Positions 37,808-63,230 of a stretch of 64,000 nucleotides of DNA are shown here, piece by piece. Numbering within the stretch: the stretch's first letter is position 1; every line of letters starts with the position of its first letter. Source of the DNA: Sandaracinobacter neustonicus (lineage in GTDB: Bacteria > Pseudomonadota > Alphaproteobacteria > Sphingomonadales > Sphingomonadaceae); the NCBI RefSeq assembly GCF_006385875.1, contig NZ_VFSU01000011.1, positions 186,001 to 250,000 of the forward strand. Reading direction: 5' to 3'. Below the pieces are notes generated by a model, which had not been told where the DNA came from, ran no database searches, and was given only the letters and a program-made list of their open reading frames with translations. A program made the position numbers and the translations under genes.

Positions 37808-39163
37808 TTACTTGCCCTTCCGTGCCAGCGCCGCCGCGCGGAAGCGCGCAGCCCAGCCAGCCTTTGAAACCTGCGGTGGCCGCACCAGCGCCAGCGCATC
37901 CGCCGCGACATCCTGCGTGAGCGTGCTGCCCGCGCCGACGATTGCGCCGTCGCCGATCGTCACCGGCGCGACCAGTGCCGAATTGGAGCCGATGAACGCA
38001 CCTTCGCCGATCACCGTCTGATATTTGCCGAAGCCGTCATAATTGCAGGTGATGGTGCCCGCGCCGATGTTCGCCTTCGCGCCGACGGTCGCGTCGCCCA
38101 GATAGCTGAGGTGGTTGGCCTTGGCCCCCGGACCCAGCACGGCTTTTTTCGTCTCCACGAAATTGCCCACCTTCGCGCCCGTTTCCAGCACGGTGCCGGG
38201 CCGCAGCCGGGCATAGGGGCCGACTTCGCAGCCAGTCGCCACGCGCGCGCCTTCCAGATGGCTGAAGGCGCGGATGGTTGCGCCCGCCGCCACCTCCACG
38301 CCGGGGGCGAACACCACGTTCGGCTCCACCAGCGTATCGCGGCCGATCAGCGTGTCGAAGCTGAGGAACACGGTTTCCGGCGCGGTCAGCGTCACGCCAG
38401 CGGCCATCAGGTCTGCGCGGCGGCGCTGCTGGAACAGCGCTTCGGCCTCCGCCAGTTCACCCCGGCTGTTCACGCCCAGCACTTCGCCCGGAGGCGCTTC
38501 CAGCACCCGGCAGTCCCCGCCTGCCGCAGTCGCCAGCATCACGATGTCCGGCAGATAATATTCGCCCGCCGCATTGGCGTTGCCCACCTGCTTCAGCAGG
38601 CCGAACAGGCGGGCGGAGTCGACCGCCATCAGCCCGGCGTTGCACAGCGGCACGGCCAGTTCCTCCGGCGTCGCGTCTTTCGCCTCCACCATTTTCCGGA
38701 TGCGACCGTCTGCATCGGCGATCACCCGGCCATAAGCGCCCGGCACGGCGGGGCGGAACCCCAGCACGGCGATCTCCGCGCCATCTGCCACGGCCTGCAC
38801 CAGCCGCGCCATGGTCGCGCCCGACACCAGCGGCACATCGCCGAACAGGATCAGCGCCACGCCATCGAAGCCCGCCAGCGCGGCTTCGGCCTGCAGAACG
38901 GCATGGCCGGTGCCCAGCTGCGGCTCCTGCACGGCCAGTTGGACGTCAGAGCCTGTCAGTGCGGCGCGCAGCTGTTCGGCCTTGTCGCCCACCACGACCA
39001 CCTGCCGCTCCGGCGCGAGCGCGGTCAGGCTGGCCAGCAGATGCATCAGCATCGGCCGCCCGCCCAGCGGGTGCAGCACCTTGTGCAGATCGGATTTCAT
39101 GCGCGTGCCCTTGCCGGCGGCAAGGATGATGGCGGCGACGGGCCGGGCGGGAACAGGTGCCAT
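37808..39163 (-). CDS. glmU: Bifunctional UDP-GlcNAc pyrophosphorylase/GlcN-1-P acetyltransferase
   Basis: The 451-residue GlmU has the pyrophosphorylase signature AAGKGTRMKSDLHKVL near residue 15. The left-handed beta-helix of hexapeptide repeats includes LRPGTVLETGAKVGNFVETK and NYDGFGKYQT. It supplies UDP-GlcNAc. It is divergent from gph, 86 bp apart, and feeds directly from glmS's product pathway. Confidence 0.96.
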   Translation of the reverse strand: MAPVPARPVAAIILAAGKGTRMKSDLHKVLHPLGGRPMLMHLLASLTALAPERQVVVVGDKAEQLRAALTGSDVQLAVQEPQLGTGHAVLQAEAALAGFDGVALILFGDVPLVSGATMARLVQAVADGAEIAVLGFRPAVPGAYGRVIADADGRIRKMVEAKDATPEELAVPLCNAGLMAVDSARLFGLLKQVGNANAAGEYYLPDIVMLATAAGGDCRVLEAPPGEVLGVNSRGELAEAEALFQQRRRADLMAAGVTLTAPETVFLSFDTLIGRDTLVEPNVVFAPGVEVAAGATIRAFSHLEGARVATGCEVGPYARLRPGTVLETGAKVGNFVETKKAVLGPGAKANHLSYLGDATVGAKANIGAGTITCNYDGFGKYQTVIGEGAFIGSNSALVAPVTIGDGAIVGAGSTLTQDVAADALALVRPPQVSKAGWAARFRAAALARKGK

Positions 39164-45121: not shown

Positions 45122-45640
45122 ATGCAAAGCGCAATCAAAACCGTGGAAGTCGACACCTCCGCCCGAACGCTGCGCGCTGGCTGGCGGGAATTCAGAATCG
45201 CCATCGGCAAGGGCGGGGCAAAGCCCGCCGCAGAGAAGCGGGAAGGCGATGGCGCAACCCCGCTGGGCCGCTGGCAGGTGGAAGGGTTGCTGGTGCGGCC
45301 AGACCGGATGCCCGCACCGCAGACAACCCTGCCATGGCGCTGGCTGCGCCCATGGGACGGCTGGTGCGATGATTCCGCAGACCCGGCCTATAACAGCCCC
45401 GTCAGCCACCCCTATCCGGCCTCTGCCGAACGGCTCTGGCGCGACGATCATGCCTATGACCTGATCGTCATCCTGTCGCACAATCGACACCCGGTGATTG
45501 CAGGCGCGGGCAGCGCGGTCTTCTGGCACGTCGCCCAGCCGGACTGGCGGCCAACAGAGGGGTGCATCGCGATGGAGGCGGGCGAGCTTCAGTCATTGCT
45601 GCCATTATTGTCGCCGCAGACTGCGTTGGACATCGGTTGA
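45122..45640 (+). CDS. L,D-transpeptidase family protein (YkuD domain)
   Basis: The 172-residue protein has the YkuD catalytic cysteine block PTEGCIAM preceded by conserved histidines (ILSHN and VFWHV). The N-terminal GKGGAKPAAEKREGDGATPLG motif is shared with ErfK-type enzymes. It crosslinks peptidoglycan at D-amino-acid bonds or attaches proteins to it. No signal peptide is evident, so location is unclear. It is the last intact chromosomal gene before the tRNA-Arg fragment. Confidence 0.85.
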   Translation: MQSAIKTVEVDTSARTLRAGWREFRIAIGKGGAKPAAEKREGDGATPLGRWQVEGLLVRPDRMPAPQTTLPWRWLRPWDGWCDDSADPAYNSPVSHPYPASAERLWRDDHAYDLIVILSHNRHPVIAGAGSAVFWHVAQPDWRPTEGCIAMEAGELQSLLPLLSPQTALDIG

Positions 45641-45686: not shown

Positions 45687-45732
45687 GCACCCGTAGCTCA
45701 GCTGGATAGAGCGTTGCCCTCCGAAGGCAAAG
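45687..45732 (+). pseudogene. Truncated tRNA-Arg(CCG), 5' half only
   Basis: The sequence folds as acceptor 5' strand GCACCCG, D-arm (GTAGCTCAGCTGGATAGAGC) and anticodon arm TTGCC-CTCCGAA-GGCAA with anticodon CCG. After AG at 45731-45732 the variable loop, T-arm and acceptor 3' strand are missing. The following 246 bp carry no TTCGAAT or CGGGTGC match, so the gene cannot make a tRNA. This is the probable attachment site of the element to the right. Confidence 0.85.
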
Positions 45733-45801
45733 CTAAGTCAAGCGCGCTGTGGGTGAAGGCAAAGAAAATCGAGGGAAACCAAGCGATTGGCGGAACTCGA
45801 A

Positions 45802-45848
45802 GGAAGCAGGAAAACTGCTTCCGTGGTCGCGGAAGCACTGCGGAAGCA
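45802..45848. repeat. Four GGAAGCA repeats near the att end
   Basis: GGAAGCA occurs at 45802-45808, 45831-45837 and 45842-45848, and inverted as TGCTTCC at 45816-45822. The cluster lies 70-116 bp inside the element end, where arm-type sites for a tyrosine recombinase would be expected. This is inference from position. Confidence 0.4.
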
Positions 45849-45978
45849 AATTGAAGGAGGATATGGAGTACGAACGGCGACAATCGGCAGCGGATTTTTG
45901 GCCACCCCGTTTGCATTCGTTCGATTGCTGGATTCTCGATTGACCCTGATCGGTCACGAGCCCTATCTGAATACCGAT

Positions 45979-46055
45979 GCACCCATAGCTCAGCTGGATA
46001 GAGCGCACCCCTCCGAAGGGTGAGGTCTCAGGTTCGAATCCTGATGGGTGCGCCA
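45979..46055 (+). tRNA. tRNA-Arg(CCG), complete
   Basis: The 77-nt sequence folds as a full cloverleaf: acceptor GCACCCA with TGGGTGC, D-arm, anticodon stem CACCC/GGGTG around CTCCGAA (anticodon CCG), T-arm TCAGG-TTCGAAT-CCTGA, and encoded CCA (46053-46055). It differs from the truncated copy at 45687 in the acceptor, anticodon-stem and T-arm. So it is a second gene and not a displaced half. It lies inside the element and can replace the broken gene. CGG codons need this species. Confidence 0.95.
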
Positions 46056-46083: not shown

Positions 46084-46473
46084 TTAGAGAGCGACCCTTC
46101 CAGCGAGGAAGCGGACCAGCCTGAGCCCGGCGAATAATGCTCCGGTAGATAGCGCAACCGACGCCGCCACATAGATAGCAGCGTAGATCGGCTGCCCCCG
46201 CTCCCATAGCAGCGCTGTTTCCAGAGAGAACGTCGAGAAGGTTGTGAATCCACCGATGACGCCTGTTGTCAGGAACAGGCGCGCAGGCTGCGGAAGCCCA
46301 GTCTTGATGGCCCAATACTCGACGACCATTCCTACTAGGAAAGATCCGGTAATATTGATGGCAAGCGTGCCAAAGGGAAAGCTCGTGCCGAAACATTTGA
46401 GCGCCAGTAGGCTGACGCCGTGACGAGCCATGCCCCCGATACCAGATCCTATGAAGACGAGAAGAAAACCCAC
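46084..46473 (-). CDS. fluC: Fluoride channel FluC (CrcB)
   Basis: This 129-residue, four-helix membrane protein has the FluC hallmarks GGMARHG, FPFGTLAINITGSFLVG (with the conserved Asn) and GGFTTFSTFSLE. It exports F- as a dual-topology dimer. It starts with GTG at 46473, preceded by AGGGAGG at good distance; the nearby ATG is out of frame. A fluoride riboswitch lies directly upstream. It is element-borne cargo for fluoride resistance. Confidence 0.93.
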   Translation of the reverse strand: MGFLLVFIGSGIGGMARHGVSLLALKCFGTSFPFGTLAINITGSFLVGMVVEYWAIKTGLPQPARLFLTTGVIGGFTTFSTFSLETALLWERGQPIYAAIYVAASVALSTGALFAGLRLVRFLAGRVAL

Positions 46474-46479
46474 GCATGC

Positions 46480-46555
46480 CTCCCTTAGCGCCCAACGGCG
46501 CGAAAGCAGGCGTCATCAGCACCAGCGCGGTTATAAGGGAGACACCATTCCCTTT
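46480..46555 (-). promoter_or_regulatory. Fluoride (crcB) riboswitch
   Basis: On the minus strand the leader reads GGGAATGGTGTCTCCC, TTATAACCGC and GCTGATGACGCCTGCT in order. This is the conserved pattern of the crcB/fluoride aptamer (AUGG...CC, pseudoknot partners, CUGAUGACGCCU). The aptamer spans 46505-46555. A GCGCC-GTTG-GGCGC hairpin and the ribosome-binding site of fluC follow, so control is probably at translation. Confidence 0.9.
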
Positions 46556-46718
46556 GAGAAAATATCAGTGCGAGAGGCAGGCGACAACAGGTGGCACCAC
46601 TCACGCCGCGTTGTGCGCCAGTTTCACTTCGAGGATGCGGACTCCAGCCGGGGTGGTCATAAACTCAATCCGCCAAACCCCAAGGCGCGATGCTGTTGGA
46701 AATCGTCTTGGCGATTTT

Positions 46719-47576
46719 CTAATACGCCTTGTGGCGTGGCGAAGCCGTCCGCCAGACCATGGTCAACTCCCTGACCGGCGCGCCGATTGAGAGCGGTCGC
46801 GATACCACCTGCGTCTCCCGCTGGACGTCTGACCGCACATAGAGAGCCGGCAGAAGAGATATTCCCATACCGCAAGTCACCATGAGCCTGAGCGTGTCCA
46901 GCGTCGTGCCCGCGTAGTCCGTAGCATGGGCTGCGCCGACCTTATCGCAAAGCCGGGCGATCTGATCGTGAATTCGGTGCCCCCGTTCCATACTCAGAAT
47001 CGTTTCGCCTGCCAGATTCTTCGGATCAACGGTGTCGAATGCGGCCAGGCGATGATCGGCCTGAACGACAAGGTGCAGGGGCTCACACAGCAAGACGACG
47101 CTGGTGAACTCGGGATCGTCCAGTCTTTCGGGAAGCAGCAGCACATCGTGAGCACCATCGGATAATTTGCCCGGCAGATTTTCGAGCCGATCCTCCCTGA
47201 CCATGATGCGTAAATCGGGGTAAGACTCCCGAAGCTGTGGCACAGCGAGCGAAAGCACATAGCCTCCTACGGTCTGGACCACACCTAATCGCAACGGGCC
47301 ACGCGGCACGTCCGCTTCATCGTGGCGGGCGATTTCCCGAATGTCCTCGACTTCGGCAACAACGCTTCTCGCGCGTCGCGCGATCTCCGAACCGACGGGT
47401 GTCATTAACACTTTGGTCCGCGTGCGCTCTACAAGCTGGACCCCTAGCCGGTTCTCCATCTCCTTGAGCTGCATGCTCAACGTGGGCTGCGTCACGTTGC
47501 ACGCGTCCGCTGCGCGGCTGAAATTTCCATGGTCGGCTACGGCGATGAGGTATCGCAATTGTTGAACGCTTGGCAT
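46719..47576 (-). CDS. OxyR-like LysR regulator without the peroxidatic cysteine, prematurely ended
   Basis: The 285-residue product starts with the LysR winged helix (MPSVQQLRYLIAVADHGNFS, LTQPTLSMQLKEME-type recognition helix) and continues as an OxyR-like sensor domain. Where OxyR has the peroxidatic Cys in GHCLRDQ, this protein has GHRIHDQ (R201); the second Cys is kept (C210 in IARLC). It ends at TAG (46719-46721) after SPRHKAY, and the same frame continues KIAKTISNSIAPWGLAD to a TGA at 46675, as if the stop arose recently. It lies on one side of an IS1380 element with a catalase gene on the other, the classic oxyR-kat neighbourhood. Confidence 0.8.
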   Translation of the reverse strand: MPSVQQLRYLIAVADHGNFSRAADACNVTQPTLSMQLKEMENRLGVQLVERTRTKVLMTPVGSEIARRARSVVAEVEDIREIARHDEADVPRGPLRLGVVQTVGGYVLSLAVPQLRESYPDLRIMVREDRLENLPGKLSDGAHDVLLLPERLDDPEFTSVVLLCEPLHLVVQADHRLAAFDTVDPKNLAGETILSMERGHRIHDQIARLCDKVGAAHATDYAGTTLDTLRLMVTCGMGISLLPALYVRSDVQRETQVVSRPLSIGAPVRELTMVWRTASPRHKAY

Positions 47577-47591
47577 GAGACATACTTATAG

Positions 47592-49262
47592 CCCACATTC
47601 TCCAAGTAAGTCGCTGATTTCGCTGTCGTAATCGTGATATTTCGCATATAAATCATGGCGTTGACGGCTGCGAGGGGCGCGTTTCATGGATCACCTGGAG
47701 GGTGCGGGCTTGGCGCGGGGAGATCGGGTTGATTTCGACCGCCGTGTGCGTCTGGAGTTCCGTGGTGCGCAGATCAGTTCAGACGGTGGCCTGCTGGTGA
47801 TGCGCGAGCTTGATGACGTGCTCGGCCTGTCCAATCTGGCGTCGGAGGCGCTGCGAGACAGCCGCACCGGGAAGAACACGCTCCATCGGCTTGACGGATT
47901 GTTCCGGCAATCGGTGTTCGGACGACTGGCCGGATACGAGGATGTGAACGATGCCGACCGCTTGGCCCTCGATCCCGTGATGCGTCAGGTCGTTGGCGGC
48001 AGGGCCGTCGAGGCGCAAGCTGCTTCGGCATCGCAGATGGGACGGTTCGAGACCGAGACGCTGGCTCTGGCCGCGAACCGGGCGGCGCTGGCCGATCTGA
48101 ACGGCCAATGGATCGACCGGTTTCATGACCGCAACGGGTTGAAATACATCGTGCTGGACATGGACAGCTCGGTCAGCCCCACCCACGGCGATCAGGAAGG
48201 TACTGCCTGGAACGGGCATTTCGACTGCACCTGCTATCACCCCATCTTCTTGTTCAACCAGTTTGGCATGCTGGAGCGCTGCGCCCTGCGTAACGGCAAT
48301 GTCCACAGCGCCGATGGCTGGCGGGATGTCCTTGATCCCGTCATTGCCCGATATGCTGGCCGCGACCTTGGTGGACGCTTCTTCCGGGCCGACGCTGCCT
48401 ACGCGATCCCCGCGATCTATATGCGGCTGGAAGAAGCCAGGTTCTTCTACGCCATCCGTCTGCCCGCCAACGCCGTCTTGCGCGAGAAGATCGCGCATCG
48501 GCTGACACGGCCCGTGGGACGGCCTTCGCTGACCAAGGTCAAACGGTTCTTCGAGGACTTCGAGTATCAGGCGGCGTCCTGGGACAAGCCGCGCCGCGTC
48601 ATCGCCAAGATCGAATGGCATCCGGGCGAGCTGTTCCCCAAAGTCGGCTTCATCGTCACCAACCTGCCGATGGAGCCAGACTGGGTGGTGAGGTTCTACA
48701 ACCAGCGCGGCACCGCAGAGCAGCACATCAAGGAAGGCAAATATGCCTTTCGCTGGACGCGGCTGTCATGCCGGAAGTTCCGGCACAACGAGGTGCGGCT
48801 GCAACTGCACGCGCTGGCCTACAACCTGGCAACCTTCCTGCGCTGCATCGAACTGCCCGAGGCCATGGCGGACTGGTCGTTGACCAGCCTGCAACTCAAG
48901 CTGATCAAGATCGGCGCCCGCGTCGTCCGCCACGCCCGCGCCATTACCTTCCAGTTGGCCGAGGTCGCCGTCACCGGCCCGATGGTGCGGGCCGTCCTTG
49001 CCGCCATCCGCCGTCTTCGAACGCCTCCGTCATGCGCATGACCACGATCCATGCCCAAGCTGAACGAAAGCGGCAGGACAGGTCCGTCTGCCGCGCGGAA
49101 AAGCGGCTCTGCCGGGCCAGAATGCTGCGGGTTCGAGGCTTGATCCACCCGACTTCGGCCGTTTGCGCGACGACAGACACCGCTCGGGGCGAAAAACGCT
49201 TGCCCAGCGAGCAAAATCAGGCGATCTTGAAGTCAAGCGGCGGGCCACTTGGGGAATGTCGG
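47592..49262 (+). mobile_element. IS1380-family insertion sequence
   Basis: Imperfect terminal inverted repeats bound a 1,671-bp unit: CCCACATTCTCCAAGT at 47592-47607, and the reverse complement of CCGACATTCCCCAAGT at 49247-49262 (14 of 16 bases match). A single IS1380-type transposase fills it. Flanking bases TATAG (left) and ATTGG (right) are not a target duplication. It lies 16 bp from the OxyR-like start and about 90 bp from the catalase start. Confidence 0.8.
47686..49041 (+). CDS. IS1380-family transposase
   Basis: The 451-residue DDE transposase has the IS1380 blocks: [38 protein letters not shown], the first catalytic Asp in [31 protein letters not shown], and the C-terminal [19 protein letters not shown] with the catalytic Glu. 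The whole frame is intact, so the element could be mobile. The catalase frame extends into its tail in another frame, but that extension is not coding. Confidence 0.92.
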
Positions 49263-49352
49263 ATTGGACATCATCGTCATATTGGCGTGTTAGTTCCTCC
49301 AATTCGAATCTGGGTTCCGTCGCTGCGGAGCCGCATGCAGTGGAGGACGAGC

Positions 49353-50858
49353 ATGACCAAGAACCCGACCATGACGACGAGCGCGGGCGCGCCGGTTCCC
49401 GACAACCAGAATTCGATCACCGCCGGCGAGCGCGGCCCGGTCCTGCTGCAGGATTATCAGCTGCTCGAGAAGCTCGCCCACCAGAACCGCGAGCGCATTC
49501 CCGAGCGTGTCGTCCATGCCAAGGGGTGGGGCGCGCATGGCACGCTGAAGATCACCGGCGACATCTCGAAATACACCAAGGCCAAGGCGCTGCAGCCGGG
49601 CGCGGAGACGCCGCTGATCCTGCGTTTCTCGACCGTGGCTGGCGAGATGGGCGCGGCCGATGCCGAGCGCGACGTGCGCGGCTTCGCGATCAAGTTCTAT
49701 ACGCCTGAAGGCAACTGGGATCTCGTCGGCAACAACACGCCGGTGTTCTTCGTGCGCGATCCGGTGAAATTCCCCGACTTCATCCACACCCAGAAGCGCC
49801 ATCCGAAGACCAACATGCGCTCGCCGACGGCGATGTGGGACTTCTGGTCTCTCTCGCCGGAGAGCCTGCATCAGGTCACGATCCTGATGTCGGATCGCGG
49901 CCTGCCGGTCGCCCCGATGTTCATGAACGGCTACGGTTCGCACACCTATTCGTTCTGGAACGACCAGGGCGAGCGCTACTGGGTGAAATTCCACTTCAAG
50001 ACCGTGCAGGGTCACAAGCACTACACCAACGAGCAGGCAGAGCAGGTCATCGGCCGGACGCGCGAGAGCTATCAGGAAGAGCTCTACGGCACGATCGATC
50101 GCGGCGAGTTCCCGAAATGGAAGGTCCAGGTCCAGATCATGCCGGAGCTGGATGCGGAGAAGACCTCCTACAATCCCTTCGACCTGACCAAGGTCTGGCC
50201 GCATGCGGACTATCCGCCGATCGACATCGGCGTGATGGAGCTCAACCGCAATCCGGACAATTACTTCGCCGAGATCGAGAACGCCGCGTTCTCGCCGTCG
50301 AACATCGTGCCCGGCATCGGGTTCTCGCCCGACAAGATGCTGCAGGCCCGCATCTTCTCCTATGCGGATGCCCATCGCCACCGGCTCGGCACGCATTACG
50401 AGACCATTCCGGTCAACCAGCCGAAATGCCCGGTGCACCACTATCACCGTGACGGGCAGATGAACACGTATGGCGGCATCAAGACCGGCAGCCCGGACGC
50501 CTATTACGAGCCGAACTCCTTCGGCGGACCGGTCGAGCAGCCTTCCGCCAAGGAGCCGCCGCTGAAGATTTCGGGCGATGCGGATCGCTACAACCATCGC
50601 ATCGGCAATGACGACTACTCGCAGCCGCGCGCGCTGTTCAACCTGTTCGACCCCGCCCAGAAGGAGCGCCTGTTCTCCAACATCGCCGCTGCGATGGGCG
50701 GCATCCCGCAGGCGATCGAGGAGCGCCAGCTCGCCCATTTCGACAAGATCCATTCCGAATACGGCAATGGCGTGCGCCGCGCGCTCGCCAAGTCGGATGG
50801 GCGCGAGCGTCCCGCGATCTCGGTGACCGAGAACACGCCGCAGCACGCGGCGGAGTAA
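49353..50858 (+). CDS. katA: Catalase, small-subunit clade 3
   Basis: The 501-residue haem catalase has the active-site His55 in [13 protein letters not shown], the catalytic Asn in [12 protein letters not shown] (about 127-128) and the proximal Tyr region [14 protein letters not shown]. At about 500 residues it lacks the extra domain of large clade 2 enzymes and is therefore clade 3 in size. The ATG at 49353 follows TGGAGGA. The codon bias and downstream repeat suggest a Rhizobiales origin. It would usually be under OxyR; here an IS element separates them. Confidence 0.93.
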
Positions 50859-52231: not shown

Positions 52232-54544
52232 GTGTCCCTGATCTCCATTCTTCTACTATCAGCTTTGGGTTCCGTTGCTGCATGGCGGGTGGGGCGGCAC
52301 GTTTCATCCGGTCTGAAGCACGTCGCTGCACTTCTACCTATCGCCCTTTTTGCCTGCTTCATCTTTCACATTGAGCCGGTGGCCTCCGGCGGGGTCGTCA
52401 CCGATACGGCCGCATGGGTGCCCTCTTTGGGAATCGACCTGGCTTTCAGGCTGGACGGATTTTCGCTTCTGTTCGCTCTCCTGATTACCGGCATCGGCTC
52501 GCTCGTGACGATCTATGCCACGAGCTATTTTTCTGAGGCCGATGCACGCGAGCGCGCCCGCTTCGTCTTCCTGATCCATCTGTTTATGACAGCGATGCTC
52601 GGGACGGTGCTGTCGGACAACCTCATTGTCATGTTCGTGTTCTGGGAAGCGACAAGCCTGACCTCCTTCATGCTGATCGGCTTCGAGACCGCGAAGACGG
52701 AGGCCCGCCGCGCCGCGTTGCAGTCGCTGCTCATTACCTGTGGCGGCGGGCTGGCGCTGCTCGGCGCGATCCTGCTCATCGGCATGGAGCTTGGCTCATT
52801 TTCGTTGGCCGCCATCACCGCCCGGGCGCCGGAACTTGTCGCAAGCCCGTTGCTGCCGGCCGTGATCGTCCTGCTTCTGATCGGGACATTCACCAAGTCG
52901 GCGCAGTTTCCCTTTCACTTCTGGCTCCCGAAGGCCATGGCCGCACCGACGCCGGCCTCGGCCTATCTGCACTCTGCGACCATGGTGAAGCTGGGCGTCT
53001 ATCTGCTTGCCCGCTTCGACGGCATCTTTGCCGGCGTCCCGGCCTACGGGGTGATCCTCGTCACCTTCGGCCTGCTCACCATGTCGATAGCGGCCTTCAA
53101 CGCGATCCGCGCGACTGGCTATAAGGCCATTCTGGCGCAATCGACCGTGGCCTCGCTCGGTATTCTGGTGATGCTGATCGGCCTCGATGGTCCTGTGTCG
53201 TCCGTAGCGGTCATCGGCTTCATTCTATCCCACGCCCTCTACAAGGCGGCGCTGTTCTTCTGCGCGGGCACAGCTATCCACGCCACTCACATCACCGAGT
53301 TGCGCAAGCTCGGCGGTCTCGCCAAGCATCTGCCGTTCACGGCGGCAGCGGCGGTTCTGGCAAGTCTGTCCATGGCCGGACTGCCGCCCTTTGTGGGCTT
53401 CATCGCCAAGGAATACCTGTTTGAAGCGCAGCTCCAGAGCAGTTGGAGCGCGATCGCCGTGATCGTCGCCGTGCTGGTCAACGGCGTCATGGTTGCCGTC
53501 GCCGGTGCGGTGTCGCTTCGCCCCTTCTTCCGGGGGCGCGGCAAGATCGAGCATGTGCATCATGGGGAGACGCCCGGCCTTCTGATCGGGCCGATGCTGC
53601 TGGCTATCCTCGGCGTCGTATTCGGCATCGCACCGCACCTGATCGTGGACAACCTGATCGCTCCTGCGGCCGGTGCCCTGCGCGGTTCACCTGTCCAGGT
53701 TTCATTTTCGCTATGGCACGGCCTGACCCCGATGCTGGGTCTGAGCGCTGCCGTGGTGATCCTCGGTATCGCGCTGATGTGGAAGTGGAATGAGTTTCAT
53801 CGCGCCATTGGTCAGATGAGGCTCGTCCAGAAAATCGATGCCGACCGGGCCTATTATCGGGTTGTAGATAGGGTGCTGGGGACAGCACGCGCCACAACCC
53901 GATGGCTCCAGAACGGGGATCAACGGCGATACACCCTAACCGTGGCATCGTCGCTGCTGATCGTGGCCGGTTATGCCCTTGTGACAGGGGGACCGCTGAA
54001 CCTGACGTGGAGCGGCGGGGAAATCCTCCCGTTTCCGGCCATCATCCTGATTCTGGCGATAGTAGGATGTGTCGTAGCCATTAGATCGACCTCTCTGGTC
54101 ACGGGGCTCGTCGGCATCGGCATTGTCGGCTACGGCTCGGCGCTGCTCTTTCTCGCCAACGGAGCACCCGATCTGGCGCTCACCCAATTCGCGGTCGAGA
54201 CCCTTGTGCTGGTCGTGCTGATGGCCGTTCTCGTGCGCTTGCCGACCGATGCGCCCAAAACGCGATCGCCAAGGGAAAGCCGGATCGATGCGGGCATTGC
54301 AACTATCTTTGGCTTCCTCGTCTTCGGCGGCCTTGCAACCATGACGGCCCAGCCGTTCGACACCCGCCTGTCCGATTTCTATGGCGCGACCAGCTATCTC
54401 GAAGCGCGGGGGCACAACGTCGTCAACGTCATCATCGTTGATTACCGCGCCTTCGATACCGTCGGGGAGGTTGCCGTTGTGGCCTTCGCCACCCTTGCGG
54501 TTTGGGCGCTGCTCAAGCGCCGCCGTGCCGGAAAGGGGAGCTGA
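52232..54544 (+). CDS. mrpA: Mrp Na+/H+ antiporter subunit A
   Basis: The 770-residue polytopic protein is MrpA: a NuoL-like N-terminal part with FVFWEATSLTSFMLIGFE, KSAQFPFHFWLPKAMAAPTPASAYLHSATMVK-type signature and the later IVDYRAFDTVGEV motif near the C terminus. It forms the proton-channel-like part of the Mrp complex in the inner membrane. It starts with GTG at 52232, which overlaps the end of the M20 frame, and mrpB follows after 2 bp. The operon order is A-B-C-D-E-F-G, the standard group 1 layout with separate A and B. Confidence 0.92.
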   Translation: MSLISILLLSALGSVAAWRVGRHVSSGLKHVAALLPIALFACFIFHIEPVASGGVVTDTAAWVPSLGIDLAFRLDGFSLLFALLITGIGSLVTIYATSYFSEADARERARFVFLIHLFMTAMLGTVLSDNLIVMFVFWEATSLTSFMLIGFETAKTEARRAALQSLLITCGGGLALLGAILLIGMELGSFSLAAITARAPELVASPLLPAVIVLLLIGTFTKSAQFPFHFWLPKAMAAPTPASAYLHSATMVKLGVYLLARFDGIFAGVPAYGVILVTFGLLTMSIAAFNAIRATGYKAILAQSTVASLGILVMLIGLDGPVSSVAVIGFILSHALYKAALFFCAGTAIHATHITELRKLGGLAKHLPFTAAAAVLASLSMAGLPPFVGFIAKEYLFEAQLQSSWSAIAVIVAVLVNGVMVAVAGAVSLRPFFRGRGKIEHVHHGETPGLLIGPMLLAILGVVFGIAPHLIVDNLIAPAAGALRGSPVQVSFSLWHGLTPMLGLSAAVVILGIALMWKWNEFHRAIGQMRLVQKIDADRAYYRVVDRVLGTARATTRWLQNGDQRRYTLTVASSLLIVAGYALVTGGPLNLTWSGGEILPFPAIILILAIVGCVVAIRSTSLVTGLVGIGIVGYGSALLFLANGAPDLALTQFAVETLVLVVLMAVLVRLPTDAPKTRSPRESRIDAGIATIFGFLVFGGLATMTAQPFDTRLSDFYGATSYLEARGHNVVNVIIVDYRAFDTVGEVAVVAFATLAVWALLKRRRAGKGS

Positions 54545-54546
54545 CC

Positions 54547-54954
54547 ATGCGCTCGGTGATCTTCTCCGCCATGGCCAGGGCGTTCTTCTGGATCATGCTG
54601 GCCGTCTCGGTGCTGATCCTTCTGCGAGGCCACGACCAGCCCGGAGGCGGCTTCGTCGGCGGCCTGGTCGCCGCCATGGCGATCGGTGTCGTGGCGCTTG
54701 CCGATGGCGTCGCCGCCGCCCGCCGTCGTCTCGTCGCACAACCTGTCGTCCTGCTCGGTCTTGGAGGGCTGCTGACCATCGTCAGCGGCATCCCGGGCTT
54801 TGTCGCGGGCGGGGGGTTTCTCGCGCATCAATGGCTCATCTTCGACAACGGATTCAAGCTCGGCACGACCATGGTGTTCGACCTCGGCGTCTATCTCGTC
54901 GTGTTGGGCGGGATGCTGTCCCTTGTCTTCCGCCTCTACGAGGATGCGCCATGA
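54547..54954 (+). CDS. mrpB: Mrp antiporter subunit B
   Basis: This 135-residue product has four helices and the MrpB signature LRGHDQPGGGFVGGLVAAMAI near its start. It is an essential small subunit of the Mrp complex. The ATG at 54547 follows the mrpA stop by 2 bp; its stop overlaps mrpC (ATGA). Confidence 0.93.
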   Translation: MRSVIFSAMARAFFWIMLAVSVLILLRGHDQPGGGFVGGLVAAMAIGVVALADGVAAARRRLVAQPVVLLGLGGLLTIVSGIPGFVAGGGFLAHQWLIFDNGFKLGTTMVFDLGVYLVVLGGMLSLVFRLYEDAP

Positions 54955-55331
54955 ACCTGATCTATTCCGCCGGCTTCGCCGCCATCATGGCTTGCGGTGT
55001 TTACCTCCTGCTGTCCCGGCACGTCATGCGCATCGTGTATGGCGTGATCCTGATCTCGGCCTCGGTCAACCTCGTCCTCTTCCTCTCGGGCAGGATCGGC
55101 CCTAATCCGCCCCCCGTGATCCCGTCCGGAGAGACGGTCCTTTCTGCCGGGGCCGCCAATCCGCTGCCCCAAGCGCTGGTGCTGACGGCCATCGTCATCG
55201 GCTTTTCGCTGGTCGCCTTTGCTGTGGCGCTGGCGCTCCAGACCTTTCGAACCATTGGAACGCTGGACAGTCGGAAGCTGAACCAGGCGGAAGCGCTGGG
55301 CTCGCCCTATGAGGAGGGCAAGAGCCAATGA
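54951..55331 (+). CDS. mrpC: Mrp antiporter subunit C
   Basis: The 126-residue NuoK-like subunit has three helices, including YGVILISASVNLVLFLSGR and VLTAIVIGFSLVAFAVALAL (ALVLTAIVIG is the NuoK-type motif). It connects MrpA and MrpD in the complex. It overlaps mrpB and mrpD by 4 bp each. Confidence 0.93.
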   Translation: MNLIYSAGFAAIMACGVYLLLSRHVMRIVYGVILISASVNLVLFLSGRIGPNPPPVIPSGETVLSAGAANPLPQALVLTAIVIGFSLVAFAVALALQTFRTIGTLDSRKLNQAEALGSPYEEGKSQ

Positions 55332-56838
55332 TCGGGTTCATCACGTCAAATGTCATCCTCTGGCCGATTGTCGTGCCGCTCACCGGCGCGATGCTTGCGA
55401 TGCTGTTTTGGTCATCGCCGGCCGCACAGCGTATCGTCACGGCCGCCGCATTGGCGGCGATGCTGGCGGCCGCTCTGCTCCTGCTCAACCGCGTCCTCTC
55501 CGATGGGCAGATCGCGTTGACCTTCGGGGGCTGGGCTCCCCCCTTCGGCATCAGCTTCGTCGCCGATCGACTTGGAACGGCCATGGTGATGGTGACGGCG
55601 TTGCTCGCCGCTGCGGTCATGCTGTTCGGTCGCGCCGATATTCGGGGCCGTCAGGAGCGCTCGGGGTTCCATCCCCTCATGCTCGGCATGCTCGCCTCGA
55701 TCAACGGCGCATTCCTCACCGGAGATCTCTTCAATCTCTATGTCTGGTTCGAGATCATGCTCATCACGGCGATGGCCTGCTGGTCATCGACCGGACCCGC
55801 GCGCAACTGGATGGCACGATCAAATATGCGGTGCTGAACCTCTTCAGCACATTGCTGTTCCTGCTGGCCATCGCCATCGTTTACGGGGTTACGGGAACGC
55901 TCAACATGGCGGACCTGTCCGTTGTCCTTGGTCAGACGCAGGACAATAACGCGCTAGCCCTGGCCGCCGCCCTGTTCCTCGTCGGCTTCGGCATCAAGGC
56001 GGGCTACTTCCCGCTCTTCTTCTGGCTTCCCGGCTCCTATCACACGGCCTCGATGACGGTAGCCGCGATCTTCGCGGGCCTGCTGACCAAGGTGGGCGTT
56101 TACGCGACCTTCCGCATTTTCTCGCTGTTCTTCGAAGGCGGCGAGGCCATGCGGGACGTGATGGCGATCATGGCGGCCGGCACCATGCTGTTCGGGGTGT
56201 TCGGTGCCGCCGTGCAGTGGGACGTTCGCCGCATCCTCTCATTCCACATCATCAGCCAGATTGGCTACATGCTGCTCGGCCTTGCGCTTGGAACCCCGGC
56301 CGCGCTGGGCGGTGCGGCCTTCTACATCGTCCATCACATCATCGTTAAGGCCAATCTGTTCCTGATCGCCGGAGCCATCTATCGCGCCAGCGGAACCTTC
56401 GACCTGCGCAAGTCGGGCGGCCTGATGGCGAGCCATCCGATGCTGGCCCTGCTGTTCTCAATTCCTGCCTTGTCCCTCGCCGGCATCCCGCCCCTGTCGG
56501 GATTTTGGGCCAAGGTCATGGTCATCGACGCCTCCTTTCAGGCTGGCGCCGGCTGGCTGGCGGCCGTTGGGCTGTTCGTCGGCCTGCTGACGATCTTCTC
56601 CATGAGCAAAATCTGGATCGAAGCGTTCTGGAAGCCCGCACCGTTGGGCCGCACCAGGCCCCGACCGGTGCCTGCCGTCATGCTGGTGTCCATCGCGACC
56701 CTTGGCGCGATCACTGTCTGGATCGGCCTGCAACCCGAGCCTTTGGTGAACTATGCCCTTGCGACAGGAGAAAGCCTTCTGGATCGGAGCGCGTATGTCC
56801 GGGCCACCTTTGCCGGCACCACGGGAGAACTGCCATGA
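55328..56838 (+). pseudogene. mrpD: mrpD with a frameshift at about 55,774
   Basis: MrpD is NuoN/NuoM-like. The first 149 codons or so read normally (MIGFITSNVILWPIVVPLTG, GDLFNLYVWFEIMLITAM). At 55772-55776 ATGGCC stands where ATGGGCC is expected, and the frame moves. The original frame then stops at 55837. The remaining part (GLLVIDRTRAQLDGTIKYAVLNLFSTLL to the end) is in the next frame and intact to 56838, including GIKAGYFPLFFWLPGSYH. One G appears to be missing. The other six subunits are whole, so a recent mutation, a sequencing error or recoding are all possible. Confidence 0.8.
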
Positions 56839-59042: not shown

Positions 59043-60215
59043 TCAGCCTCTGTAAGGTTCGAGTACTAAGTCGCGTGTGACGATGACCCGGACGGGATAA
59101 CCGGGGCGGATCGTCAACGTGGGCGCGATCTGCAGTTGACGCCGAATAATTTGCTGGCCTGCATCATTGATCGTGTCTTGCGCCCCATCGCGGATCGCGC
59201 GGATCAGGCGGTCTTCATCGCTAACGGCACGTTGCGAGCCGACGGCCAGCAAGGTCGAGAGGCCTACGGCTTTCGCTAGATCCCACCAGTGATAGTCGAC
59301 GCCATCCTGGAGGCCGGCATACCCTTGGGTATCGGCGCCCGGTTGCCTCTCCAAAACGATCGAACGGCCGTTCGGAAGGATCAGCCTGTTCCAGACGAGA
59401 AGAACACGGCGTTGCCCAAAGCCGACGTCGTTGCTGTATTCCCCGATAATTCGTGTCCCCTGGGGCACGATGAGCACGCGACCGGTAGGGCTATCGTAGA
59501 TATTTTCCGTCACCTGCGCGGTAATCTGTCCGGGCAGATCGGAGCGTATGCCCGTGATCAGTGCGGCGGGGATGACGGCACCGGCCTGAAGAACGTAGGG
59601 AGAGGCGGGAGCCACTACACGATCGGCCGATACGGTGCGGCGATCGACCGGACCATTCAGGAATGCGAGCTGACGTTCCTGAGCCGTTCGTGCTGCGCCA
59701 GGCATTTCGAGACTAGGCATACCAAGCGTCGCCGTTTCCGCAGGCGCGGTGGTAGCTCCAGGCCCGGTTTGAAAAAAGACTCGGCTGATGCGCGCCGCTT
59801 CCATTTCCGCCAGTCGACGTTGTTCCTCCGGATCGGGTTGGGGCGACGCCACGGGCGGGGGAACGACGGGTTGACCACGATTTTGCGCATCGAGGATCGG
59901 GCGGCCGAGATCGCCAGGGAGCGGCGGACCGAGAACAGGGCCAGAATAATCCCGCGGAAGGCCTGCGAGGCCGTCGGCAGTCGGACGGTTCTCGGTCGAG
60001 TAAAGTTCCCGATCGCTGTCGCCAGCGTCGCGCGTCTGCAACGCATAGATCAGGGCACCGCCGATGCCGACGCTGACGATAAGTCCGGCGGTCGCGAGCA
60101 CCTTGCGGGAGAGACGAGTTATGCGTGGCGGTTCAGCGCGTAGGCGCATGGGTTCAGCCGATTCAGCGGTCGCTCCTGTCAGCGCTTCGTCCCTATTCGT
60201 TTCATTGTTGCTCAC
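59043..60215 (-). CDS. trbI: Conjugal transfer protein TrbI (VirB10 family)
   Basis: The 390-residue VirB10 homologue has a short cytoplasmic N terminus, one transmembrane helix (VLATAGLIVSVGIGGALIYAL, about 40-60), a Pro-rich linker (VVPPPVASPQPDPEEQRR), and the C-terminal domain with YVLQAGAVIPAALITGIRSD, GRVLIVPQGTRIIGEYSNDV and NRLILPNGRSIVLE. It spans both membranes of the T4SS and links to TrbG. It overlaps trbG by 4 bp. Confidence 0.93.
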   Translation of the reverse strand: MSNNETNRDEALTGATAESAEPMRLRAEPPRITRLSRKVLATAGLIVSVGIGGALIYALQTRDAGDSDRELYSTENRPTADGLAGLPRDYSGPVLGPPLPGDLGRPILDAQNRGQPVVPPPVASPQPDPEEQRRLAEMEAARISRVFFQTGPGATTAPAETATLGMPSLEMPGAARTAQERQLAFLNGPVDRRTVSADRVVAPASPYVLQAGAVIPAALITGIRSDLPGQITAQVTENIYDSPTGRVLIVPQGTRIIGEYSNDVGFGQRRVLLVWNRLILPNGRSIVLERQPGADTQGYAGLQDGVDYHWWDLAKAVGLSTLLAVGSQRAVSDEDRLIRAIRDGAQDTINDAGQQIIRRQLQIAPTLTIRPGYPVRVIVTRDLVLEPYRG

Positions 60216-61192
60216 GATGCGGGCCTCCCGTCGGTGCGGACGATCCTGACGGTTTGCTGGCGATCGCCGCCTCCGAGGCGCAGCTCGGCGGCGGCGAAGA
60301 TCCGGTCTACGATCAGGATGTTCTGGTAAATTCGACTGTTGACGATCTGAGGTTCGCCGTCCGAGCCAAGGACGAAGATGGGCGGCATTTCGCCTTGGGC
60401 GATGCCGCGTGGAAACTCCACATAGACCCGCCGGCCATCGTCATAGACGGAGACCGGCCGCCAGGGCGGCGTGTCGCCGGTCAACCCATAGCGATACCGC
60501 CGCTGCGATGCCGCAGGAATGACGGGCGTTGCCGGAATATTCAGACGCTGGGAGGCCGGCAGCTTGGGATAGGCCCAAGCTATCGCCGGCATGTAAGGTG
60601 TTTCGGCGGCGCGCAGCTCGATCATGTATATGCGCCGGTCGGTCGTAATCACCAGATTGGTCGAGATGCCGGTCCTTGTGGGCTTCACCAGCACATGGAC
60701 ACGCCGGGTAATGCCCGATCCGCTTTCGGTGTCGCCGATGATCCAACGCGCTGTATCGCCAGCAGCGATCGGACCGGCGCCGGTGAGGCGTTCGCCTGGC
60801 TCGAGCGCGATGTTCGTGATCTGGCCCGGCGAGGCATACACCTGATAGAGGGCACCTTCGCTCCATGGATAAATCTGAATGGAGTTGTAGTAGCCTTCGC
60901 GTCGGGGCTCGATCCGCGCCGCGGCATTGGCGTTTCCGACGCGTCCAGTGGGTGAATTCGCGGCGGTCCCACCGCGCGCCGGCACCCAGGCCGGCGGTAT
61001 GTGCAATGGACGCGGTCGTTCTTCAACGACAGGCGCTGGCGCAGCCGGTAGAGGCGGCACGCTTTCGTCGTAGCTGATCTGCGACGGCTTGGTGGTCGCG
61101 CATCCCGCCAGCGTGGTGGCGGAAAGAAGCGCAAGCACCAAGGCGGATTTACGGAAAGCCGGAGTGCCGGCTTTGCTGAGAGCCGGACTCAT
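60212..61192 (-). CDS. trbG: Conjugal transfer protein TrbG (VirB9 family)
   Basis: The 326-residue TrbG has a lipoprotein signal with LAGC at about residues 27-30. The VirB9 domain follows with YQVYASPGQITNIALEPGE, RVHVLVKPTRTGISTNLVI and RYRYGLTGDTPPW. It forms the outer-membrane core with TrbI and a lipoprotein. It overlaps trbF and trbI by 4 bp. Confidence 0.93.
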   Translation of the reverse strand: MSPALSKAGTPAFRKSALVLALLSATTLAGCATTKPSQISYDESVPPLPAAPAPVVEERPRPLHIPPAWVPARGGTAANSPTGRVGNANAAARIEPRREGYYNSIQIYPWSEGALYQVYASPGQITNIALEPGERLTGAGPIAAGDTARWIIGDTESGSGITRRVHVLVKPTRTGISTNLVITTDRRIYMIELRAAETPYMPAIAWAYPKLPASQRLNIPATPVIPAASQRRYRYGLTGDTPPWRPVSVYDDGRRVYVEFPRGIAQGEMPPIFVLGSDGEPQIVNSRIYQNILIVDRIFAAAELRLGGGDRQQTVRIVRTDGRPAS

Positions 61193-61878
61193 TGCGACAT
61201 CTCCCGCGACCAGTTGATGGCGTTGACGTAGATTCCTAACGGATTGGCGCGCAGCCGTTCGGCGTCGCGCGGGGGCTGGATCACGATGGTGAGGATCGCG
61301 GTCCAGCGCTCGGTCGTGGCGAGCTGGCCGTTCTCGTAGCGCCTCTCTGTCCAGGCCACGCGGAAAGAGTCCGGCGAAGCGCGAATGACGCTCGACACTT
61401 CCACCGCGATCTGCTGCCGCCCGACTTTGGTGAACGGGTCATTGGCGCGGGCGTAGTCGTTGAGGGCGGCTGCGCCACGGTCTGTCGTCCATTCGTAGGC
61501 GCGAAGCCAATTCTGACGGACAATGATCGCGTCGGCCGGGATGGCGCGAACCTGCTCAATGAAGCGGCCGAGATGGAAGGCAATCTGCGGATCGGTCGGC
61601 CGATAATCGGCCACGGCGGGGGCGACGCTCTGGGCCTGGCCGAAACGATCGACCTGAACGACCCAGGGCACCACAGTGCCGCGCGCCGATTGCAAGACCA
61701 GTGCCGTGGCGAAACCCGCGGACAGGATCAGCGAGCCAAAGGCCATAGCGCGCCAGTTCCTGGCCTGCACACGGGCGGAGCCGATGCGGTCGTCCCAGAC
61801 TTGTGCAGCCTTCTGATAGGGCGTCACCGGCTCGGGCGACTTGCCGTAGTGGGTTGTGGGGCGTTTGAACAAGCTCAT
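61189..61878 (-). CDS. trbF: Conjugal transfer protein TrbF (VirB8 family)
   Basis: The 229-residue VirB8-like protein has a cytoplasmic N terminus, one transmembrane helix (MAFGSLILSAGFATALVLQS, about 45-65), and a periplasmic NTF2-like domain (IAFHLGRFIEQVRAIPADAIIVRQNWLRAYE). It bridges the inner-membrane and core complexes. It overlaps trbG by 4 bp and touches trbL. Confidence 0.93.
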   Translation of the reverse strand: MSLFKRPTTHYGKSPEPVTPYQKAAQVWDDRIGSARVQARNWRAMAFGSLILSAGFATALVLQSARGTVVPWVVQVDRFGQAQSVAPAVADYRPTDPQIAFHLGRFIEQVRAIPADAIIVRQNWLRAYEWTTDRGAAALNDYARANDPFTKVGRQQIAVEVSSVIRASPDSFRVAWTERRYENGQLATTERWTAILTIVIQPPRDAERLRANPLGIYVNAINWSREMSQ

Positions 61879-63230
61879 TAGCGGTCACTTTCGGAGAGGT
61901 TGACGGAAGAGCCGCCGCCGTGGCTGTCGCCGGCGCGAACGGCATGAGCGGCGACTGTTGCGCCGTGCCCGATTGAACGGCTGCGCTGCATGCGCCTGGC
62001 CCAGGCGGGAGGACCTTCGCGGGAGCCGGCCGAACTGTCGGCAGCAGGTTCCCCGCCGATGGTCCCTTTGGTTGAGGAACCGCCCGTGGCCCCGAAGCCG
62101 GCCTTGGCGCCGTCGGAGAAGCTGGATTTCATGCTGTCGGCGGCGCGCGAGGTGGCGCGCTTCAGCGGGGAGACGGTCGCCGCGCTCGCAGCGCGGGCGA
62201 CGCCGCCGAGACCGGATGCGACGCCCGCCGCGCCGGACTGGCCCAGGGAACCGAGGCTGTACGCGGCGCTCGCACCACCCGCGGCTGCGGCGCCTCCGCG
62301 GGCGACAGCAGCGCCGCCAGAGAGCGCCGCCGCGCTTCCCTTTACGGCCAGGCCGGCGGCGCCACCTGCGGCAAGCGCCGCCCCGCCGACCGCAAGGCCG
62401 GTACCAACGGCGGCGCCGGCGCTGAGCTGCGGCCCGCCCTGAACCAAGCCGGCGGCGATGCCGGGACCGAAGATGCCGAGACCCAGCAGGGAAAGCGCAG
62501 CCAGCACGACAGCCATGGCGTCGTCGATCGTCGGCGTCTGGCCTCCGAATCCGGTCGTGAACTGTGAAAACAGTGTCGAGCCGATGCCGATGATAACGGC
62601 GAGAACCAACACCTTGATGCCGGAGGAGACGACGTTGCCCAGCACGCGCTCGGCCATGAACGCGGTCTTTCCGAAGAGCCCAAAGGGGATCAGAACAAAG
62701 CCGGCAAGCGTCGTCAGCTTGAACTCGATCAACGTGACGAAGAGCTGGATGGCGAGAATGAAGAAGGCGAGGATGACCAGCGCCCAGGCGAAGAGCAGAC
62801 ACGCGATCTGGATGAAATTCTCGAAAAAGCTGATCCATCCCATCAGATCGGAGATGGACTCCAGCAGCGGCCGTGCCGCATCCAGCCCGGTTTGAGCGAC
62901 CTTTCCGGGCCGCATCAGATCCTGAGCCGTGAAGCTCGTGCCCGATCCCTTCAGGCCGAGGCCGGCGAAGGATTCGAAAATGATTCTGGCGAGGTTGTTC
63001 CAGTTGCCGATGATGTAGGCGAAGGCGCCGACGAAGAGGGTCTTCTTGACGAGCCGCGCGATGATGTCGTCGTCAGCGCCCCAGCTCCAGAACAACGCGG
63101 CGAGCGTCACATCGATCACTATGAGCGTGGTCGCAATGAAGGCGACCTCGCCACCAAGCAATCCGAAGCCGCTGTCGATATAGGAGGTGAAGACCCCCAG
63201 GAAATTGTCGATGACGCCTGAGCCGCCCAT
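61878..63230 (-). CDS. trbL: Conjugal transfer protein TrbL (VirB6 family)
   Basis: The 450-residue polytopic protein has about six helices in the first 250 residues (VIDNFLGVFTSYIDSGFGLLGG, FIQIACLLFAWALVILAFF, VLGNVVSSGIKVLVLAVIIG). A glycine/alanine/serine-rich tail of about 200 residues follows, as is typical of TrbL. It forms the inner-membrane channel. The stop touches trbF (TGATG). Confidence 0.92.
   Translation of the reverse strand: MGGSGVIDNFLGVFTSYIDSGFGLLGGEVAFIATTLIVIDVTLAALFWSWGADDDIIARLVKKTLFVGAFAYIIGNWNNLARIIFESFAGLGLKGSGTSFTAQDLMRPGKVAQTGLDAARPLLESISDLMGWISFFENFIQIACLLFAWALVILAFFILAIQLFVTLIEFKLTTLAGFVLIPFGLFGKTAFMAERVLGNVVSSGIKVLVLAVIIGIGSTLFSQFTTGFGGQTPTIDDAMAVVLAALSLLGLGIFGPGIAAGLVQGGPQLSAGAAVGTGLAVGGAALAAGGAAGLAVKGSAAALSGGAAVARGGAAAAGGASAAYSLGSLGQSGAAGVASGLGGVARAASAATVSPLKRATSRAADSMKSSFSDGAKAGFGATGGSSTKGTIGGEPAADSSAGSREGPPAWARRMQRSRSIGHGATVAAHAVRAGDSHGGGSSVNLSESDR

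Follow-up and report, generated by a model that had tools for sequence, protein, structure and literature searches.

How does a bacterium read CGG codons when its native tRNA-Arg(CCG) gene stops halfway? The question arises from a 64,000-nucleotide stretch of the Sandaracinobacter neustonicus genome (hereafter the window; positions on its contig, C11, are window positions plus 186,000). The 5′ half of a native tRNA-Arg(CCG) gene lies at 45687–45732 on the plus strand and comprises the 5′ acceptor strand, the D-arm, and the anticodon arm with two further nucleotides. At 45,732, two bases past the anticodon stem, the gene is broken and foreign sequence follows. With the native gene as reference, the T-arm and the 3′ acceptor strand are absent directly after this point, and neither ARAGORN nor Rfam RF00005 calls a tRNA at 45687. 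The first-pass annotation had described the break in the same way, and the sequence agrees with the native gene exactly as far as 45732. A gene for a YkuD L,D-transpeptidase (45122–45640, plus strand, Pfam PF03734) forms the host flank on the left.

Where is the rest of the gene? A whole-genome search with the locus found the missing 3′ half on the same strand and contig at C11:379993–380042. Counted from C11:379,995, it lies 148,276 bp downstream of the break, beside a tyrosine integrase gene, and it spans the anticodon loop to CGGGTGC-GCCA. This end had been predicted correctly; where the prediction had GGTC, the sequence reads GGCC. The same search gave a complete tRNA-Arg(CCG) at C11:293460 and four other, weaker matches. 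When joined by script, the halves make a gene of 77 nucleotides with no difference from the whole native gene of another genome of the family (G012) and one difference from that of a genome of the same genus (G003); 45687–45732 continued from C11:379995 is identical to the gene at locus L083. Thus, the split of the native tRNA-Arg(CCG) is confirmed as real, and the 5′ fragment is no chance match, because its partner lies on the same strand. In G003, the whole native tRNA stands behind the same left-hand YkuD gene (67% identity by tblastn), as had been anticipated for a related genome. On the right-hand side, the G003 contig stops 2.8 kb past its tRNA and thus gives no synteny support, and none of the ORFs of the G012 stretch matches C11:186001–431000. 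Partial McrBC-like and zeta-toxin-like genes are found to the right of the native 3′ half (C11:380188–381619; L059:9188–10619) and are perhaps the remains of a further island.

What lies between the two halves? The core sequence CTCCGAAGGC, which in the 5′ half covers the anticodon loop and three stem bases (45719–45728, plus strand), occurs at C11:231719, C11:293326, and C11:379995 and bounds two elements in tandem, E1 (61,607 bp) and E2 (86,669 bp). The att core common to all three sites is 10 bp long, while the two outer sites have 16 bp in common. Integrase genes (451 and 453 residues) adjoin the second and the third core on the left, with the start codon nearest the core. The two P4-like integrases, each at the right end of its element, are 76% identical and have the Pfam domains Arm-DNA-bind_3 and Phage_integrase. 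Both elements encode a DUF3363 relaxase-like protein, VirD4/TraG, a VirB11-like ATPase, CagX/VirB9, RepA, a ParB-like protein, and ArdC; the scan for VirB8, TrbI, and TrbL covered E1 and that for a VirB4-like protein covered E2, each with a match. The E2 relaxase is assigned by DUF3363, as its score for Pfam Relaxase (24.4) is just below the cut-off of 24.6. With an integrase, a relaxase, a coupling protein, and mating-pair genes between att repeats, E1 and E2 are putative integrative and conjugative elements (ICEs). Among the scanned genes, the relaxase, the coupling protein, and the type IV secretion genes speak against a temperate phage. In the collection searched, the integrase matches 126 phage records, all below 60% identity (among the matches listed, the best has 27.8%), and its best plasmid record is from Bradyrhizobium (80.3%).

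No whole tRNA was called at any of the three junctions, 45687, C11:293326 (L013), and C11:379995. The earlier claim that integration left the native gene unrestored is borne out by this and by the 3′ half 148 kb away. Neither tRNA half was found at the middle junction, which suggests that one element used an att junction of the other as its entry site rather than a tRNA gene. In classic tRNA integration, by contrast, the element restores the tRNA with a 3′ part of its own, and the fragment at 45687 would be a displaced att copy. This is the usual course for islands according to the accessible part of the Islander study (PMC4383910), and the left end of one array in another genome (G436, described below) has a whole tRNA. 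For the window locus it is very unlikely: the native partner half of the fragment lies far away, none of the three junctions has a whole tRNA, the complete tRNAs of the elements differ from the native gene at 11–13 positions, and the joined halves are identical to a whole native gene elsewhere.

The reading I favor, with a probability of about 0.9, is that E1 and E2 are tandem putative ICEs that have split the native tRNA-Arg(CCG), each supplying a complete substitute on which the host lives. The P4-like tyrosine integrases would recombine the short core CTCCGAAGGC, on which they presumably act, with the anticodon arm of the host tRNA-Arg(CCG). With no more than about 10 bp in common between the att sites, none of the junctions regains a functional tRNA. 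Each element brings a complete tRNA-Arg(CCG) just inside its left end, that of E1 behind a promoter-like sequence, and the host would live on these tRNAs. Castillo et al. reportedly found in 2018 that Acidithiobacillus ICEs recognize the anticodon stem/loop; that ICE integrase would be alike in its choice of target region, although the target there is said to be tRNA-Ala and here it is tRNA-Arg(CCG), and replacement of the tRNA is not known from those ICEs.

The left end of E1 shows how the substitute is placed. A left att arm (45729–45978, plus strand) contains paired GCGGAAGCA repeats at 45829–45850, which are probably integrase arm sites; a consensus drawn from 39 left ends retains CGgAAGCacc.CGgAAGCA. 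Across the left junction (45687–45763), the RNA is predicted to form a stable hairpin (z −3.2), perhaps by chance, in which the native acceptor strand pairs with element sequence. A promoter-like TTGACC-17 nt-CTATCT (45940–45968, plus strand) stands ahead of the E1 replacement tRNA and, judged by its sequence and position, may act as its promoter. TTGACC occurs within the last 62 nucleotides before the tRNA in 32 of the 39 left ends, many with a TATCT-like box about 17 nucleotides on. G412 and L066 have near variants, while E2, G443, L071, L080, and L091 lack it and have short spacers (124–137 nucleotides) with GTAAGCA repeats instead. The complete replacement tRNA-Arg(CCG) of E1 lies at 45979–46055 on the plus strand (ARAGORN; Rfam RF00005, 67.1 bits). 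Its anticodon stem is CACCC/GGGTG as against TTGCC/GGCAA in the native gene, and the two programs thereby support the earlier statement that a complete tRNA-Arg(CCG) with different stems lies inside the element. E2 likewise carries its complete replacement tRNA-Arg(CCG), the one at C11:293460, near its left end. The joined native gene has 13 differences from the E1 tRNA and 11 from the E2 tRNA.

The first cargo of E1 (46084–46561) is a crcB/fluC fluoride exporter gene (46084–46473, minus strand, Pfam PF02537) with a fluoride riboswitch (46500–46561, minus strand, Rfam RF01734, 46.7 bits). It is followed by a gene for a LysR-type regulator (46719–47576, minus strand, Pfam PF00126 and PF03466), which I would guess to be OxyR-like from the nearby catalase gene (49308–50858, plus strand, Pfam PF00199). 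Between them lies a DDE transposase gene (47686–49041, plus strand, Pfam PF13701 DDE_Tnp_1_4), which I take to be IS1380-like. Genes for Mrp-type antiporter subunits (52232–56838, plus strand, Pfam PF00361 and others, from two scanned reading frames) and the E1 conjugation genes trbI, virB9/cagX, virB8, and trbL/virB6 (59043–63230, minus strand, Pfam PF03743, PF03524, PF04335, and PF04610) lie further to the right in the window.

Does the host need the element tRNAs? In the genome, 44 tRNAs were found and typed. The arginine set consists of ACG, CCT, TCT, and the two element-borne CCG tRNAs; no other CCG and no TCG tRNA is among the 44 found in this assembly (99.42% complete, 34 contigs). The host tRNA is therefore non-redundant, both CCG tRNAs found in the genome being element-borne. 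In 30 ORFs from the host side of the window, CGG makes up 285 of the 953 arginine codons, and every one of the 30 has it. The ICG anticodon does not read CGG. Since CGG is common and is not read by ICG, and since no other CCG or TCG tRNA was found, the host should depend on at least one element tRNA for CGG decoding, and the replacement tRNAs would be expressed and essential. Two other tRNA calls were unusual. ARAGORN called a tRNA-Leu(GAG) at 38740–38811 on the minus strand of the window, which the covariance search did not list; a Leu(GAG) gene was found elsewhere, and the call is probably false. It also called an odd 77-nucleotide tRNA-Ser(ACT) (L039, C6:36345–36418), shorter than expected, since serine tRNAs have a long variable arm.

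The first-pass annotation went further, holding that the break would be lethal without the tRNA of E1, that the element could not be lost without restoration of the native gene, and that the case is an addiction by substitution, which a second intact CCG gene would contradict. A second complete copy does exist, but it is borne by the second element in the same split gene. Thus, an element tRNA should indeed be needed for CGG decoding, but the copy of E1 is not the sole one, and the loss of E1 alone would leave that of E2. That the element cannot be lost is not supported by the anatomy. If the first and the third core recombined, the native gene would be re-formed without a change, so that precise excision should be harmless and tolerated. 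Imprecise loss should not be tolerated, and lethality is expected only if the replacement tRNAs are deleted or decay. The term addiction is only partly apt.

Is the arrangement common? At least five of 30 genomes have a 5′ half with a complete tRNA-Arg(CCG) behind it (the S. neustonicus genome, G001, G002, G010, and G028). A search with both integrases gave 235 relatives, and the best 80 of the 235 loci were analyzed. Most of these 80 are titled Alphaproteobacteria, some have unspecific titles, and a few are odd, namely a Streptomyces record, a Burkholderiales MAG, and a Salinicola MAG. The core with a tRNA 3′ half lies 180–187 bp before the integrase start in 69 of the best 80. Five have the core without a tRNA half (L120, L134, L143, L155, and L174), and behind the first four of these stands a complete tRNA. 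In three loci the sequence is truncated or masked inside the 3′ half (L131, L146, and L151). The core is missing from another three (L153, L167, and L192), in the first two because the record starts at or just before the point. At E ≤ 1e-150 the integrase is present in 4 of 387 genomes of the class, S. neustonicus included; the integrase clade is scattered but rare.

From 38 of the 80 loci, a survey of 37 genomes was reached. A native 5′ half with a second CCG tRNA 166–301 bp downstream was found in 33 of the 37, the distance being 289–293 bp in 28. The second tRNA is complete in 32 of these 33 and cut by the contig end in G422. The search pattern, allowing up to three mismatches, matched exactly these two places in 25 of the 33, gave a third match in six, and gave one in G410 and G415, which were counted from fetched sequence beyond the pattern matches. 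The arrangement is absent from two MAGs, G425 (no match) and G435 (where a different contig has the native gene intact), while G436 and G437 have the junction and the substitute with no native 5′ half adjoining. The integrase and the 5′ half share a contig in 14 of the 33 genomes, all 14 in the right order and strand, and span 57.8–123.9 kb; some of these spans may be arrays, as in G433. In the other 19, separate contigs carry the integrase locus and the 5′ half, which are assumed to bound one element. That the window junction at 45732 is an assembly chimera, or that the fragment is a decayed tRNA pseudogene unconnected to a mobile element, might be suspected in an assembly of 34 contigs. Since the same left junction and the CCG tRNA behind it recur in 33 of 37 other genomes, and the contig of the junction also has the 3′ half, with an integrase gene adjoining, this is hardly credible. 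Both classic restoration and assembly error were rejected for the window locus, because the split halves were found and the junction recurs elsewhere.

Several of these records deserve description. A Methylocystis sp. H62 record (L195:9815–17807) packs both tRNA halves, a substitute, and the integrase into a complete unit no longer than 7,992 bp. The locus titled Streptomyces sp. AcH 505 (L120) has an integrase 98% identical to that of E1 and a tandem-type junction; it is likely to be contamination. The Burkholderiales MAG (G415) has a 5′ half with a D-arm unlike the others and a substitute of the common kind, and the last 62 bases upstream of this substitute are those of a Magnetospirillum MAG (G430); MAG binning calls for caution in G415, but the half and the substitute are on one contig. 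The Rhodopseudomonas rhenobacensis record (G436, the record of L154; L229 and L222) has a mixed array. At the left end of an 18.5-kb stretch is a whole tRNA-Arg(CCG), as in classic restoration, and next come an integrase about 49% identical to those of E1 and E2, a junction, and an element whose substitute is recoded.

If the two halves once formed one gene in each host, their acceptor strands should pair. The comparison covered 32 of the 33 genomes (G420 was left out), and the native 5′ and 3′ halves pair perfectly in all 32. When the halves were shuffled among hosts 2000 times, the mean was 24.7 and the maximum 28 perfect pairings; since the GCACCCG stem recurs in many hosts, the weight of the test is mainly on the few others (G439, G440, G417, and G415). 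The native 5′ strand pairs perfectly with the 3′ strand of the substitute in 14 of 32 genomes, the cut G422 being counted as no.

Why does the anticodon stem of the substitute differ from that of the native gene? I compared 39 substitutes, those of E1 and E2 in S. neustonicus, 32 from the survey genomes, and five from relatives. The three pairs beside the loop are ACC/GGT in 24, GGC/GCC in eight, CCC/GGG in one, and the native GCC/GGC in six. The stem is thus changed as compensated pairs in 33 of 39 (34 of 40 with G420, which has ACC/GGT). All 50 genes classed as native keep GCC/GGC. They comprise 49 whole genes with no core within 420 bp upstream and L106, which was reclassified as native after its sequence was read; an upstream core there, taken at first for another split gene, reads as a chance match and was rejected. 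Since both partners of a pair are changed together in every case, the stem of the tRNA is preserved, whereas the att core is lost in its final base or bases. The odds are about even that the recoded stem protects the substitute from the integrase of its own element.

The change may instead reflect neutral drift or donor origin, to which I give somewhat less than an even chance. The constancy of GCC/GGC in 50 of 50 native genes and the three kinds of compensated change, ACC/GGT, GGC/GCC, and CCC/GGG, speak against it, but the substitute rows are related, so that the independent events are far fewer than 33. Six of the 39 substitutes keep GCC/GGC (G001, G002, G010, G028, G433, and G443). Divergent integrases in most of these weaken the point: the best integrase is 37% identical to that of E1 in G001, 59% in G002, and 65% in G010, the first integrase of G433 is 59% identical (its array also has one of 82%), and G028 has none at E ≤ 1e-30. 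G443 is a counter-case, with GCC/GGC kept and an integrase of 80% identity, which is on another contig. A further point for drift or donor origin comes from G433, where an integrase adjoins a replacement-type 3′ half; a gene of this type can thus be a target. This Hephaestia caeni record (the record of L149; L276, L277, and L278) has an array of three integrases, and the tRNA-Arg(CCG) 3′ halves behind them all differ. That behind the first integrase (GGTGG...CGGGCGC) comes from a replacement-type, recoded tRNA, and the pattern search found no 5′ half matching it. A later element seems to have split the substitute of an earlier one in G433.

How does this compare with known systems, as far as the accessible parts of the cited papers describe them? 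The closest likeness is the tRNA-dependent lysogeny of actinobacteriophages reported in 2024 by Guerrero-Bustamante and Hatfull (PMC10865867). Common to both are a tyrosine integrase at a host tRNA gene (here judged from sequence), a short core of about 10 bp, junctions at which no functional tRNA is rebuilt, a non-redundant host tRNA, and an element-borne tRNA, which here is Arg(CCG) in both elements. However, the carriers there are temperate phages and here they are conjugative elements, so that the case is not lysogeny. The targets without reconstruction were Lys-TTT, Ile2-CAT, and Leu-CAA there, and here the target is tRNA-Arg(CCG); the hosts here are mostly Alphaproteobacteria, the elements are stacked in tandem, and the anticodon stem is recoded. 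In Sinorhizobium meliloti (PMC11476347), inactivated tRNAs are replaced by copies in integrated sequences, with tRNA-Leu(UAG) as an example. That is also an alphaproteobacterial case with replacement from prophage or island copies, although the tRNAs are fMet, Met, Thr, Leu, Val, and Ser and not Arg(CCG). The frequency of such tRNAs in prophages was four times that in islands, and the paper states that no evidence exists for replacement tRNAs serving as new integration sites, whereas G433 suggests that one did.

Islander islands (PMC4383910) share with E1 and E2 the tyrosine integrase, the crossover at the anticodon (site A), and tandem arrays with their own integrases, but they were found by the restoration of the disrupted tRNA gene, which is absent here. 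The prophage vB_PamS_Pami3 of Paracoccus aminophilus (PMC6536676), another member of the Alphaproteobacteria, also has a tyrosine recombinase and targets tRNA-Arg(CCG), but it is a prophage and not a conjugative element. As far as the available portions go, tRNA replacement is absent from another prophage group (PMC12429752), degradative ICEs integrate at the 5′ or 3′ ends of genes (PMC9960961), and the arrangement is not seen in one tycheposon paper. A split gene with an element-borne replacement tRNA is thus known from phages and from prophages and islands, and what is added here is the conjugative carrier, the Arg(CCG) target, the stacking, the stem recoding, and a split substitute. In the literature searched, which included few subscription papers and was partly seen as excerpts, neither a conjugative element carrying a replacement tRNA-Arg(CCG) nor a substitute with a recoded stem was met, and the same holds for an array containing a split replacement-type tRNA.

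Taken together, the observations may be read as a widespread conjugative clade that takes over essential decoding by way of the anticodon arm, a core of about 10 bp, a recoded tRNA invisible to the integrase, and serial replacement; this joint reading is tentative, a little short of even odds. The target would be the anticodon arm, which no host could easily mutate away. As the core need be only about 10 bp, the element would be independent of the rest of the host tRNA. Later elements would split earlier substitutes, and the CGG-reading tRNA of a lineage would be replaced serially. Where annotation seeks restored tRNA genes alone, loci of this kind could be mistaken for essential genes that are broken. 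The accessible text of PMC10865867 states that prevalence outside actinobacteriophages needs study and gives a Lactobacillus johnsonii prophage as an earlier case. The present finding bears on that question, since a strategy demonstrated in some actinobacteriophages is here met in putative conjugative elements of many Alphaproteobacteria and at least one Burkholderiales MAG. The idea offered here is that of a tRNA recoded to stay functional and yet be invisible to its own integrase, and the fact that the tRNA halves of the element and the host need not fit would give a simple reason for a wide host range.
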